Positions 2 to 6,092 of a DNA stretch of 64,000 nucleotides are shown in pieces (the first letter of the stretch is position 1; the number at the start of each line of letters is the position of its first letter). Below the pieces are notes generated by a model. The model worked only from the letters and a program-made list of their open reading frames with translations, was not told the DNA's origin and made no database searches. The position numbers and the translations under genes are program-made. This stretch comes from Eggerthellaceae bacterium (lineage in GTDB: Bacteria > Actinomycetota > Coriobacteriia > Coriobacteriales > Eggerthellaceae): assembly GCA_022791455.1 (NCBI GenBank), contig JAAVZC010000013.1:1-64000 (forward strand). The letters are read 5' to 3'.

Positions 2-639
2 GGGCTCATCGGCTCGGCGGCAAGGTCCCTCGGCAATGCCGTGGGCGGCGCCTTCAAGCAGAGCGCCAAGGTCGTGTCCCACTTCTGCGGAACCGCCGCC
101 AAGATGGCCGACACCGTGTTCGGCGGGAACCCGCCGAGCCTCTCCGACGTCGCCCATGGCGCCTTGGACATCCTGGGGTTCGTGCCAGGCGTCGGTGTTG
201 CTGCGGATATTGCGAATGGCATCTTGTACGCCGCTGAGGGGAATTGGGTCGACGCCGCCATGTCGTTTATTTCCGCAGTTCCTGTTGTGGGTGACGTCGC
301 TAATGGCGCCTCGATGGGTGCAGAAGTAACGACGAAACTCACAAAAGTCGTCGACTCATTCTCGCATGTTGGCGATTTAATTACGATGGAGAAGGGGTCT
401 TTCTTCCGACTCAAAAGGGCGTATCTGATGCCGCGTATCACCCTACCTTGCACACCAAAAAATACTACAGCGAAGTAAATGCATCGATTAAACATGCAGT
501 CTCGAGAGGGAAGGCTAAGGCGGATGCGGATGGAATACTCGATCCTTTGGAGCAGAACAAACTAATCAGAGATGAGATTATTGGCGAACTGGGTAGAATA
601 AAGGCTGATTTGCAGTCTGGCGCACTTACGGGAAAGTAG
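2..639 (+). pseudogene. C-terminal part of a polymorphic toxin (pretoxin-like linker plus C-terminal tail of an AHH-type nuclease), frameshifted, 5' end outside window
   Basis: Frame 2 is open from base 2 (GLIGSAARSLGNAVGGAFKQ...DILGFVPGVGVAADIANGILYAAEGNWVDAAMSFISAVPVVGDVANG) and runs out at 478. Frame 1 continues as YDGEGVFLPTQKGVSDAAYHPTLHTKKYYSEVNASIKHAV... to the stop at 639. The two join with a single-base shift near 370-385. Confidence 0.7.
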
Positions 640-647
640 GTTGAGGC

Positions 648-2267
648 ATGAGGGTCTGGCGGTTGGAGTGCAGTGAACTTAACGAGGAGTGGGTCGAGGA
701 GGCAGGAGACTCTTCTGCTGATCGATTGCCACAATTGTGTGGCGAGAGGCTCCAGGAATCTTGGAAGGAGATGAAGCTGCAGCCATCAGGAAAATGCCCA
801 ATGAAGACAGATATTTTTTCTTTTCGCGCTGGAGCCCCGGTATTAAGTGATCGTGCAAAATGCGCTCTTGAAAAGGTCACGTCCGGCTGCGTTGAGTGGT
901 TATCTGCGGATCTAAAGAAGCACCGAGTTTGGATATTGAACGTTGTCAACGTGCTTAACTGCCTCGACTTGGGCAATTCCGAATACCAAACGGCTGGTGA
1001 TGGCTTTGTGCGACGCGTAAATAAACACGCCTTTCTCAAATCGGCTGTTGATGAGGTTAATATCTTCAAAATCCGGGAAACTCCCGATAGACCAATTTAC
1101 GTCTCGGACCGCTTCGTGGATGCTGTATTCGCCGCAGAGCTTGAAGGATTCAGTTTTTATTTGGTCTGGGATGAAGATATGCCGATGGGCGTATTGGAGT
1201 GCTGGGGGGCTCAGCCTGGCGACTATCGTCTCGAAAATGATCTTGTTCTCCGCAAGCGAAATGCGAGAATAACTCAAGGTTATGAGACCAAGTGGCTTCC
1301 GGTCGAAGGGGGCTATGAGGGCTTATTGCGTCGCGCCCGTTCTGGAGAGGAGAGGGCGCCTGGGAAAATTACTGCAGAGCAGGAATCCGAAAATAACGGC
1401 GAATTTAGCCCCCTATCCCATGATGGACTACCAATGGACGACGAGATCGCGGCGGTTCGCGGAGAGGCGCTCCGTTCGCTCCCCGCGCTGCCTTGCGCCT
1501 GCGGGGCGGCTACTGAGCCGTCCGAGGTGGGCGGCCTGCCGCGGCTCCTGCGGCGTCTGGCCGGGGGCCATGGCTCCTCCCAGGTGGGCGGGGTGCCGCT
1601 CCTGGCCGAGGGCGAGCCGTGGCCCCTCGGTCCTGGCGGCGAGCCGCTGCGGCTACTCGCCCGCGTGGACTACTCGGAGGCGCCTCGCGTGCCCGGCCTC
1701 CCGGCCAAGGGGCTCCTTCAGCTGTTCGTCTCGCGGGAGCCCGACCTGGGGCTGGGGGAGGAGGGCGGCTTCCGCGTGCTGTGGCGCCCGGAGGGCGCGC
1801 GGGGGCTGACGGAGCGGCCCGACCCCCTCTCCGACCCCTATCCTGCGCTTCCCGTGGCGTTCGGGCGAGGACTCTCCGAGAGCGAGCCGTTCGACGTGGA
1901 CTTCCGCGCCGAGGAGGCGTTCGCCTTAAAATGGAACGAGCTCCATCCCGGCCTGCCGGTCTCGAAGTACCACGAGGATGCCGACCGCTACGCTTCCGGC
2001 TGCGGCTTCACCTGGGGGCTGTCGGCCGAGGACGAGCGCGAGTGCACCGACGTCCAGCTCGGCGGCTACCCGGACTTCCTCCAGGTGGACCCCCGCTCCT
2101 ACGACCCGGACGAGCGCCGCTACGACGCGCTGGCGCTGCAGGTGTCGCCGCCCGAATGGTCGGGCATAGAGCTGGGGGACGGAGGGCGCGCCTACCTCTT
2201 CGCCCCCGCGGAGGCGCTGGCGCGCGGGGACTTCTCGGACGTCATGTTCTGGTGGGACTGCGGCTAG
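648..2267 (+). CDS. Fused immunity-like protein: N-terminal Imm11/DUF1629-like module and C-terminal YwqG/DUF1963-like module
   Basis: ORF 539 aa. VWILNVVNVLNCLDLGNSEYQ...FKIRETPDRPIYVSDRFVDAVFAAELEGFSFYLVWD matches the Imm11/DUF1629 pattern. QVGGVPLLAEGEPWPLGPGGEPLRLLARVDYSEAP...LQLF...VQLGGYPDFLQVDP...YLFAPAEALARGDFSDVMFWWDCG matches the DUF1963/YwqG pattern. Confidence 0.72.
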   Translation: MRVWRLECSELNEEWVEEAGDSSADRLPQLCGERLQESWKEMKLQPSGKCPMKTDIFSFRAGAPVLSDRAKCALEKVTSGCVEWLSADLKKHRVWILNVVNVLNCLDLGNSEYQTAGDGFVRRVNKHAFLKSAVDEVNIFKIRETPDRPIYVSDRFVDAVFAAELEGFSFYLVWDEDMPMGVLECWGAQPGDYRLENDLVLRKRNARITQGYETKWLPVEGGYEGLLRRARSGEERAPGKITAEQESENNGEFSPLSHDGLPMDDEIAAVRGEALRSLPALPCACGAATEPSEVGGLPRLLRRLAGGHGSSQVGGVPLLAEGEPWPLGPGGEPLRLLARVDYSEAPRVPGLPAKGLLQLFVSREPDLGLGEEGGFRVLWRPEGARGLTERPDPLSDPYPALPVAFGRGLSESEPFDVDFRAEEAFALKWNELHPGLPVSKYHEDADRYASGCGFTWGLSAEDERECTDVQLGGYPDFLQVDPRSYDPDERRYDALALQVSPPEWSGIELGDGGRAYLFAPAEALARGDFSDVMFWWDCG

Positions 2268-2617: not shown

Positions 2618-3088
2618 ATGTCTCAGAAACTTATGAGCGCTCGTCAAGCGTCCGAGCTGTTGGGGGTTTCTAAAGCCTACATGTGTCGGCTTTTCTCGCA
2701 GGGCGTCATACCGGCTGAGAAGGTAGACACCGACTGGGTCGTCGAACGCAAGAACGTCCAGCTTTTCCTTGATGACAAAAGCGGTACGCCCGTTTATTAC
2801 CGGTGCACTGACGGCTGGAACAAGGATGATTATTACTTCCTCTACCGTTGGATCGACAAAATGGTGAATGATCGCAAAGGGCGCTTTGATGAAGAGCTCG
2901 CGTGCATCGACCCTGAAAAACTTAGCGACGTCGCGGGAGCCCTGCTGAAAGCCGAAGGCGCCCATGCGAGGTTCGACAACCTGCGATCCCTTGAAAACCA
3001 CCCGCCCCTGACTCCGCCTGTCGTCATTTCGACTTATCCCTGCCCGGGAGCCTTTCCCTCCTTCGAGGAGATGGGGTTGATCCTGTGA
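2618..3088 (+). CDS. Excisionase/MerR-like helix-turn-helix protein (putative antitoxin of HTH-NTase pair)
   Basis: MSQKLMSARQASELLGVSKAYMCRLFSQGVIPAEKVDTDWVVERKNVQLFL; RBS GGAAGGAG upstream; GTGA overlap with next gene. Confidence 0.8.
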   Translation: MSQKLMSARQASELLGVSKAYMCRLFSQGVIPAEKVDTDWVVERKNVQLFLDDKSGTPVYYRCTDGWNKDDYYFLYRWIDKMVNDRKGRFDEELACIDPEKLSDVAGALLKAEGAHARFDNLRSLENHPPLTPPVVISTYPCPGAFPSFEEMGLIL

Positions 3089-3621
3089 ATCGAGAGCTAG
3101 ATGTCGATGAGCTCATTCAGCTTCTTAGAGAGCTCGACAACACCATTACAACGCCTATTGTTGTCCGCGCCGTAGGGGGCTTTGCGCTTGCCTGGCATGG
3201 GGTCCGCGTAAACGGACTCACGGCCGATATCGATTCCATTACCGATGACTACCCCGTCGAAGTTGAAGACGCTATCGCCAAAATCGGCGCAAAACACGGA
3301 CTTGGCCCCTGGTGGCTGAACAACGATGCCGCCGCTGACGAGCCTGACTTTATAATCGAATCCATGGATCTTAAGTGGGAGCCAGTCGATTGCGGATTCG
3401 TTCACATCTCTCTCTTCGTCGGAGATTTGGTATCGCTCCTGAAGCTCAAGCTCTCGGCTGTGGAAGATAGTGCGCTGTCGGGGCGTACGCGTGATCTCGA
3501 CGACACCATCGGCATTTTGAGGGCCCTCGGATTGACCAAGGCTGAGTTCAAACGCAAATACTCCTATCTGCAGGACGACATGCCGAACGCTTTCGCCCTT
3601 GTCTCGCGTGCGATCTGGTGA
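3085..3621 (+). CDS. Nucleotidyltransferase-fold protein (DUF6036/AbiEii-like; putative toxin)
   Basis: VVRAVGGFALAWHGVRVNGLTADID nucleotidyltransferase signature and KLKLSAVEDSALSGRTRDLDDTIGIL; overlaps upstream stop. Confidence 0.75.
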   Translation: MNRELDVDELIQLLRELDNTITTPIVVRAVGGFALAWHGVRVNGLTADIDSITDDYPVEVEDAIAKIGAKHGLGPWWLNNDAAADEPDFIIESMDLKWEPVDCGFVHISLFVGDLVSLLKLKLSAVEDSALSGRTRDLDDTIGILRALGLTKAEFKRKYSYLQDDMPNAFALVSRAIW

Positions 3622-3680
3622 CGATTGACTAGCTGCATTGCAATTATGCGATGCTTCCCGGTTTTGTTGATTCGTGCTAT

Positions 3681-3700
3681 TATGTTGTACGTACAACATA
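3681..3700. promoter_or_regulatory. Perfect 20-bp palindrome TATGTTGTACGTACAACATA, probable TA autoregulatory operator
   Basis: Self-complementary across 20 bp; overlaps a TATTAT -10-like hexamer (3678-3683); ends 10 bp before the ATG of the antitoxin ORF. Confidence 0.75.
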
Positions 3701-3710
3701 GGGAGGTAGT

Positions 3711-4019
3711 ATGACGGCAGAGGCGATGGTTACTGGGCGGATGGCGGTTCAGAAGAAGGAAGATGGGAACCGGGTGCTAAGGTCGCTTGGCGTCAATGTA
3801 TCCCAGGCAATTAATCAACTCTTTGACTTCGTTATAGAGAACCGGGCGCTGCCCTTCCCAGAAGAACATCCTGCGCAAAATCATACGGCGGCCGAATTGG
3901 CTGCTGCAGCATCTTTGGTTGATTCAATCTGCCTTCCCGCAAACAATAAGTTTTCTACCATGTCTGACCTCGAGATAAAGATGGATCGGCTTCGTTCCCG
4001 CGGTTTGTTGGACGAATAG
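3711..4019 (+). CDS. RelB/DinJ-like type II antitoxin
   Basis: MTAEAMVTGRMAVQKKEDGNRVLRSLGVNVSQAINQLFDFVIENRALPF resembles RelB/DinJ N-termini; followed by PIN gene. Confidence 0.72.
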   Translation: MTAEAMVTGRMAVQKKEDGNRVLRSLGVNVSQAINQLFDFVIENRALPFPEEHPAQNHTAAELAAAASLVDSICLPANNKFSTMSDLEIKMDRLRSRGLLDE

Positions 4020-4030
4020 AGGCCGGTAAT

Positions 4031-4486
4031 ATGCGATGCTTCGTTGACACCAATATCATTATCGACGCCCTCGCCGTTCGGAAACCCTTCTACGAAAGCG
4101 CTCGCTTGCTCCTAATTGTCGGCGCCCTTAAGGATCTCGACCTGCGCTGCAGCACCTCCCAGCTCACGGATATTTTCTACCTCCTTACAGCGGGGAGTGG
4201 TACGCGATCTCCCGAAGAAGCGAAAGCGGCCATGAAGCTGCTCTTGCGATGCGTGTCCTGCGTGCCCCTGCGCGAAGAGGGTGTGCGCAGGGCTCTCGAT
4301 TCCGATTGGGAAGATTTCGAAGACGCTTGCGTTCTCCAACGTGCGTTGGATTCGGGTTGCGATGCGCTTATAACGCGGAATAAGAAGGACTTCCACCACG
4401 CTCCCATTCCTGTGTTCGATTGCGAGGAGCTATTTGCGTACATCAGACAGGAGTATAGCTTGGAATACGCAGAGGTCGATTTTTAG
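4031..4486 (+). CDS. PIN-domain toxin (VapC-like)
   Basis: MRCFVDTNIIIDAL...DWEDFEDACVLQRALDSGCDALITRNKKDF, PIN acidic residues present. Confidence 0.85.
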   Translation: MRCFVDTNIIIDALAVRKPFYESARLLLIVGALKDLDLRCSTSQLTDIFYLLTAGSGTRSPEEAKAAMKLLLRCVSCVPLREEGVRRALDSDWEDFEDACVLQRALDSGCDALITRNKKDFHHAPIPVFDCEELFAYIRQEYSLEYAEVDF

Positions 4487-4541: not shown

Positions 4542-6092
4542 TTACTCCTGCGCGGCGATGGCTTGGTGGTGGGCTTCTTTTGCTGCTTTGATGCGTGCTT
4601 GGCTGGCGGCCATGGCTTCTTCGGCGCCTTCCCAACCGGGCAACTTCTTGTCGCGCTCGGGGTCGAACGCGCCGTGCAGCTGGCGGCCGATCTTCTTGTG
4701 GAAGTCCTCGTCGCTGTCCGCCTGGCCTAAGTTGTTGCGATGGCGCTCGGCGGCGCGGGGGTCGTCCGGGTCGGTCCAAATCTCTTCCGCCATAGGCGCC
4801 CAGTCGGCGGCGGCAGGGCGGCACTTGTCCGCCAGCTCCTGCGCCGTTTCCTGAGACTGCAGATCGGTGCAGTGGGCGCCCGATGCCTCTACCATCTCCA
4901 CCAGGCAATCGGGGTTCTCAAGCATCGGGCACGGGCGCAGGAAGTTGTCGTTGAAGGGCTGGTTGTCGTGGTACTGCATGAAGATGGGGGAGCGCAGGCA
5001 GTCCAGCAGCGACATGTCGTGGATGTTGGCGTTCGAATAATGGATAAACACGCACGGCTCCACGTCGCCCGCGGCGTTGATGTGCAGATAGCGGCGCCCG
5101 CCGGCAATGCAGCCGCCCACGTATTCGCCGTCATGCTGGAAGTCCAGCGTGAGGATGGGCTTCGTCTCGCGTACATGGCGGTTGAACTCGTAGAGCTTTA
5201 CGCGCTGCTCGGTGGTGGGCATGAGCGAGGTGGGGGCGTCTTTGCCCACCGGCATGAAGGTGAAGATCCAGGCGAACAGCGCGCCCTTCTCAATGAGCCA
5301 GTCGAAGTACTCGTCGCTGGCCACCGAGGCTGCGTTGGCGGAGGTGTAGCAGATGGACACCCCGAAGGGCAGCCCGTGGGACTTTAGCAGATCCATTGCG
5401 GCGCCCATCTTCTTGTAAACGCCGTCGCCGCGGCGTCCGTCGGTGGCGGCTTCGTCTCCCTCGGCGGAAATAGCCGGCACGAAGTTCTTCACCCGGATCA
5501 TCTCCTGGCAGAACTCCTCATCGATGAGGGTGGAGTTGGTGAAGCACAAGAAGGCGCAGTCCGGGTGCTTCTCGCAAAGGCGAATGAGGTCGCGCTTGCG
5601 CACCAAGGGCTCTCCGCCGGTGTAGATGTAGATGTGGCAGCCGAGCGCCTTGCCCTGGGTGATGATGGAGTCGATGTCCTCGAAGCTCAGGTTCAGCTTG
5701 TGGCCGTACTCGGCGGCCCAGCAGCCGGTGCAGTGCAGGTTGCAGGCGCTGGTGGGGTCCAGCAGAATGGCCCAGGGAATGTTGCAGCCGTACTTCTCGC
5801 GCGCCTTCTCCTGCTTTCCCCAGGCAATGAAGTTCCCTTCCACCATGAAGGCCTTCAGCAGGTCGTTGCGCACGGCCGGGTTCAGCGCCATCACGCGCAT
5901 GATCAGGTCGTACATGTTGTTCTTGTCTTTGATCACGCGGCGGAAGGCGTCCCTTTGCGAGGGGAACAGGGCGTCGGGGGAAATGGCGTCCAGCTTGTCG
6001 AACATCGACTGCATGTGGTTCTCGGGGTCCTCGCACAGGTAGTCGACCAGTTTGTTTGCCGTCGTGCGCATGGCGAAATCCATGGGCCTCAT
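4542..6092 (-). CDS. Radical SAM protein with SPASM-like C-terminal cysteines
   Basis: DPTSACNLHCTGCW (CxxxCxxC), YTGGEPL, C-terminal Cys cluster (GGCIAGGRRYLHINAAGDVEPC). Confidence 0.88.
   Translation of the reverse strand: MRPMDFAMRTTANKLVDYLCEDPENHMQSMFDKLDAISPDALFPSQRDAFRRVIKDKNNMYDLIMRVMALNPAVRNDLLKAFMVEGNFIAWGKQEKAREKYGCNIPWAILLDPTSACNLHCTGCWAAEYGHKLNLSFEDIDSIITQGKALGCHIYIYTGGEPLVRKRDLIRLCEKHPDCAFLCFTNSTLIDEEFCQEMIRVKNFVPAISAEGDEAATDGRRGDGVYKKMGAAMDLLKSHGLPFGVSICYTSANAASVASDEYFDWLIEKGALFAWIFTFMPVGKDAPTSLMPTTEQRVKLYEFNRHVRETKPILTLDFQHDGEYVGGCIAGGRRYLHINAAGDVEPCVFIHYSNANIHDMSLLDCLRSPIFMQYHDNQPFNDNFLRPCPMLENPDCLVEMVEASGAHCTDLQSQETAQELADKCRPAAADWAPMAEEIWTDPDDPRAAERHRNNLGQADSDEDFHKKIGRQLHGAFDPERDKKLPGWEGAEEAMAASQARIKAAKEAHHQAIAAQE

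Follow-up and report, generated by a model that had tools for sequence, protein, structure and literature searches.

The window analysed here, a stretch of 64,000 nucleotides at the beginning of contig C4 in the genome of a gut bacterium, opens with the 3′ end of an RHS toxin gene, followed on the same strand by an open reading frame at 648-2267 (+) that runs for 539 codons from an ATG and joins an Imm11 and a DUF1963 domain in one frame (Table 1). The single reading frame proposed in the initial annotation is real, as a sister species has two copies of the same full-length architecture at 39–42% identity. The likeness of its two halves to Imm11 and YwqG/DUF1963 was also borne out, with both scoring above the curated Pfam cut-offs, and on the question of whether just one half would give a recognised fold, both halves do (PDB 6a4c and 1pv5, respectively).

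Table 1. Coordinates of the genes and protein segments at the fused immunity locus
Feature	Position in window	Strand	Basis or remark
3′ end of RHS toxin gene with broken AHH tip	2..639	+	frame 2 to about 376, then frame 1 to stop 637-639
Fused Imm11-DUF1963 protein, 539 aa	648..2267	+	two full-length homologues in Parvibacter caecicola
Head: Imm11 domain, residues 1-195 (Pfam match 47-171)	648..1232	+	Pfam, fold, homology
Linker, residues 196-262	1233..1433	+	low model confidence, variable length and sequence, low GC like the head
Tail: DUF1963/YwqG (TYPP) domain, GC-rich	1434..2264	+	Pfam, PDB matches
Radical-SAM-type gene flanking the locus	4542..6092	-	close similarity along its length to a P. 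caecicola ORF

Each half of the protein was scanned alone against Pfam. The first half matched Imm11 (PF07791) at residues 47-171, with an E of 1.5e-14 and 54.2 bits against a curated cut-off of 22.1, and the second half matched DUF1963 (PF09234) at residues 311-538 of the whole protein, with an E of 2.9e-33, 116.5 bits against a cut-off of 23, and model positions 1-216 of 216 covered. The head is homologous to a stand-alone Imm11 protein (E 1.4e-23) of genome G068, which belongs to another genus of the same family. In the tail, the GGxP motif is present as GGVP and GGYP, and Q479 is invariant in a 9-sequence alignment; a GGxP motif and a near-invariant Gln define the TYPP/YwqG family (PMC4275035). 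A sequence search of solved structures matched the tail to YwqG (1pv5, E 2.7e-17) and gave no match for the head. We also considered an NCBIfam match to the SitI6 double-CXXCG immunity family, which shares a clan with Imm11 (PMC12077181), and rejected it as insignificant at an E of 0.21. GC content at the third codon position is 53% in the head, 45% in the linker and 91% in the tail, with a sharp step at the module border.

The AlphaFold model of the fused protein is of moderate confidence, with a mean pLDDT of 55.8, and falls below 50 over residues 178-263, the linker stretch, which is probably disordered according to the model. Because of this low mean pLDDT, we used only two strong fold matches from the model, as backing for the HMM results. 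These were the only PDB entries to which Foldseek matched the model below an E of 0.001: YwqG for the tail (1pv5, E 2.3e-12), and MXAN_0049 of Myxococcus xanthus for the head (6a4c, E 1.1e-4, probability 1.00, on a model of only moderate confidence).

The RHS toxin gene is split over two contigs, its 5′ part of 3,171 codons running off the end of contig C8 (G000, C8 1-9514). Within the window, the frame-2 piece of the toxin matches residues 95-204 of the compared piece of the P. caecicola toxin tip (E 2.5e-12) and the frame-1 piece matches residues 285-356 (E 1.5e-13), and the stretch between the two matches, which holds the AHH motif (near residue 3458 of P0001), is missing; the tip is also frameshifted. 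The AHH profile PF14412 covers only model positions 27-96 on the window tip and scores below its cut-off, and a search with the same profile found no other AHH domain in the window strain's genome. Judged from its sequence, the toxin tip of the window strain is probably dead in this assembly. The immunity gene is intact, which would be expected if immunity to the toxin of siblings were still useful. An assembly error at the contig end may also lie behind the missing AHH motif.

Two full-length fused copies are present in Parvibacter caecicola DSM 22242, which falls in the same GTDB genus as the window genome. Copy A is 527 aa long and 39% identical to the window protein, copy B is 538 aa long and 42% identical, and both carry Ala/Pro-rich linkers at the place of the window linker. 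On copy A the Pfam Imm11 profile reached 21.4 bits, below the cut-off of 22.1, and on copy B it had no match, so that the heads of both copies were assigned by their homology to the window protein. Copy A begins within the stop codon of the gene before it, the two overlapping as ATGA; that gene encodes an RHS toxin of 3,559 residues with an AHH nuclease tip (PF14412, E 8.5e-16). The loci of the two genomes are syntenic, since the same radical-SAM-type gene, a name given by sequence inspection without an HMM, bounds both of them. Between the two fused copies of P. caecicola lie two genes of 372 and 127 aa (L005 4439-5976) that belong to no known Pfam family and may serve the RHS locus as additional immunity or accessory genes. 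In the window, the immunity gene is separated from the radical-SAM-type gene by an HTH_17-like gene, a 178-aa gene of unknown family, and a pair of genes for a RelB-like antitoxin and a PIN_3 toxin (2618-4486), all of which are missing from that place in P. caecicola.

The search for the fusion covered 140 genomes of the family, 397 sampled Actinomycetota genomes, and plasmid and phage collections. A single-protein query of the genome collection found no relatives; an alignment query recovered P. caecicola together with DUF1963-only proteins. The plasmid and phage collections gave DUF1963-only matches and no fusion, and no further fusion was found in the Actinomycetota sample. Fused sequences are thus three in number across these collections, all in one genus, though the fusion may also occur in other phyla, which only one scan of the genome collection reached. 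Within the family, DUF1963 was found in 5/140 genomes and Imm11 in 4/140, three by Pfam profile and P. caecicola by alignment. Both domains occur together in 3 genomes, and in each of these they are neighbours or fused (hypergeometric p 8.8e-5 by genome, 0.015 by genus). The seven genomes checked for AHH were picked for holding one of the domains or for being in the genus, so the count is descriptive only: the three that are AHH-positive are exactly the three with both domains. DUF1963 lies without a neighbouring RHS toxin in family genomes G036 and G158.

In all three of these settings, the window (where the tip is degenerate), P. caecicola and G068, an AHH-tipped RHS toxin is followed by a fused or separate Imm11. 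AHH and Imm11 are an established toxin–immunity pair (PMC3482391, PMC12077181), and the Imm11 prototype is MXAN_0049 (PMC12077181); its cognate toxin is the AHH nuclease MXAN_0050, with which it is retained in pull-downs (PMC12077131). The window protein resembles MXAN_0049 (PF07791, DUF1629) in domain profile, in fold and in its place directly after an AHH toxin gene; it differs in that MXAN_0049 and the G068 Imm11 stand alone, whereas the window Imm11 carries a C-terminal DUF1963. The tail in turn shares with YwqG (PF09234, TYPP, 1pv5) the full-length domain, the GGxP motifs and the conserved Gln. YwqG-family fusions to C-type lectin, ankyrin, BRCT and WGR domains and TM regions have been listed, and Imm11 is absent from that list (PMC4275035); Imm11 itself has published fusions to SuFu and Imm23, and the Imm11-DUF1963 pairing was not found among published fusions in the portions of the literature available to us.

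We consider it probable, at roughly 60%, that the fused protein confers immunity to an RHS toxin whose tip is an AHH (HNH/EndoVII-fold) nuclease and that its tail is a shared, protein-binding, chaperone-like module. From its family and gene order, the Imm11 head would bind the AHH nuclease tip and block it, the mode of action reported for MXAN_0049 on MXAN_0050 (PMC12077131). The DUF1963/TYPP tail, for which a chaperone-like or protein-interaction role has been proposed (PMC4275035), would once have had a gene of its own after Imm11, coupled to it in translation and now fused to it through a flexible linker, and most likely serves as a shared protein-binding module that stays with the locus as heads and toxin tips change. 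Its part could be to keep the head stable, to hold on to the toxin or the toxin's shell, or to counter a second toxin; we prefer the first two because the tail is the conserved part of the protein. Against this reading stands the window strain itself, which lacks an intact cognate toxin for the fused protein, as the AHH motif is missing. Also against it are the DUF1963 genes of G036 and G158 that have no neighbouring RHS toxin, the P. caecicola heads that fall short of the Imm11 cut-off, the standing of DUF1963 outside the established immunity families, and the confinement of the three fused sequences to one genus. The locus ties the poorly understood YwqG/DUF1963 domain to an RHS-AHH toxin and an Imm11 immunity protein and gives a concrete, testable setting for its role.

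A minority possibility is a true polyimmunity protein with two targets: its head would act against the AHH nuclease, and its DUF1963 tail would itself confer immunity to another toxin, unrelated to the first. Proteins that join unrelated immunity domains are known, with Imm11 as a frequent partner (PMC3482391), and the array in which the DUF1963 gene of G068 sits also includes a DUF2247 gene and encodes an Imm32/Imm11-like protein. Like the polyimmunity proteins of Zhang et al. (2012, PMC3482391), the window protein combines an immunity domain with another globular domain in one polypeptide. The label chosen in the initial annotation is a reasonable one; of its two immunity modules the second is putative, given the protein-interaction or chaperone roles proposed in the TYPP study (PMC4275035). 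Of both domains, only Imm11 is an established immunity family, and we found no mention of DUF1963/YwqG as an immunity domain in the accessible literature. The gene also follows directly after its toxin gene, whereas polyimmunity genes usually lie away from toxin genes, a tendency rather than a strict rule (Zhang et al., PMC3482391). Finally, the tail is conserved, whereas immunity domains under pressure from toxins usually diverge fastest.

This conservation can be followed along the two P. caecicola copies. Their Imm11 heads share 17-57% identity per 30-residue segment, from about the linker end to window residue 390 they are 92-100% identical in protein and 92-99% in DNA, and over the remainder of the tail they are about 57-85% identical. 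On the sequences compared, so close a match over this block points to recent recombination, or to gene conversion, within the tail. In all three loci the toxin tip and Imm11 are poorer in GC than the sequences on either side, the upstream RHS shell and the downstream DUF1963, a pattern that fits exchange of a tip-plus-head cassette and that domain-specific composition could also cause. We raise, as a tentative and on balance unlikely proposal, that the DUF1963 tail is a constant immunity segment mirroring the constant RHS shell of the toxin. The low-GC cassette of toxin tip and Imm11 head, with conserved sequence on each flank, could then be swapped through homologous recombination at its two ends, and the downstream crossover, inside the immunity gene, would regenerate a working fusion at every exchange. 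Published Rhs tip and immunity exchange likewise involves a variable toxin tip and immunity gene with a constant RHS core (PMC3967940, PMC10539506); here, in contrast, a conserved segment also lies downstream, within the immunity gene. If the idea is true, polymorphic immunity proteins would share the design of the toxins that they block, one end variable and the other constant.

Comparison of fused and separate genes across genomes, which the initial annotation had called for, points to the origin of the protein: the domains are fused in both P. caecicola copies and separate in G068. There an RHS-AHH toxin gene is followed by a stand-alone Imm11 and then a stand-alone DUF1963 gene, and the Imm11 stop and the DUF1963 start overlap by four bases as ATGA, in different frames. 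Two neighbouring genes were probably the source of the fusion, as both are found separate and overlapping in the same kind of toxin locus in G068; this overlapping pair would be the probable pre-fusion state, in which a small insertion or deletion at the ATGA would join the two frames. Fusion of immunity genes is thus visible at two stages, as overlapping separate genes in one genus and as fused copies in another.

The long, low-confidence linker and the stand-alone genes of this relative would also be compatible with cleavage of the fused protein, or with internal re-initiation, so that two proteins act separately as they do in G068. We regard this as improbable, as the linker and its surroundings contain no start codon that is both conserved and preceded by a ribosome-binding site. 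The in-frame ATG at 1434 noted initially is present, but the proposal that it is an old start was not supported: the sequence upstream of it has no Shine-Dalgarno motif and the sister copies carry CTT (Leu) at its position, and we rejected an internal start there. That two immunity genes only recently lost the stop codon between them and are now read through, without function as a fusion, is very improbable even with a linker of low third-position GC that looks non-domain and a gene pair that is separate in G068, as the ATG at 1434 has neither a ribosome-binding site nor conservation as a start and the two full-length fused relatives keep open frames at 39-42% identity. Of that suggestion the origin from adjacent genes probably stands and the fresh stop loss does not, since there are two fused copies at about 40% identity in the syntenic sister locus. 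The fusion is old and inherited rather than the product of a recent stop-codon loss, because it occurs fused twice in the sister species and as overlapping separate genes in the more distant relative. The G068 array that holds the DUF1963 and DUF2247 genes also encodes a multi-immunity protein with two Imm32 stretches and an Imm11-like domain (L020 5350-6414).
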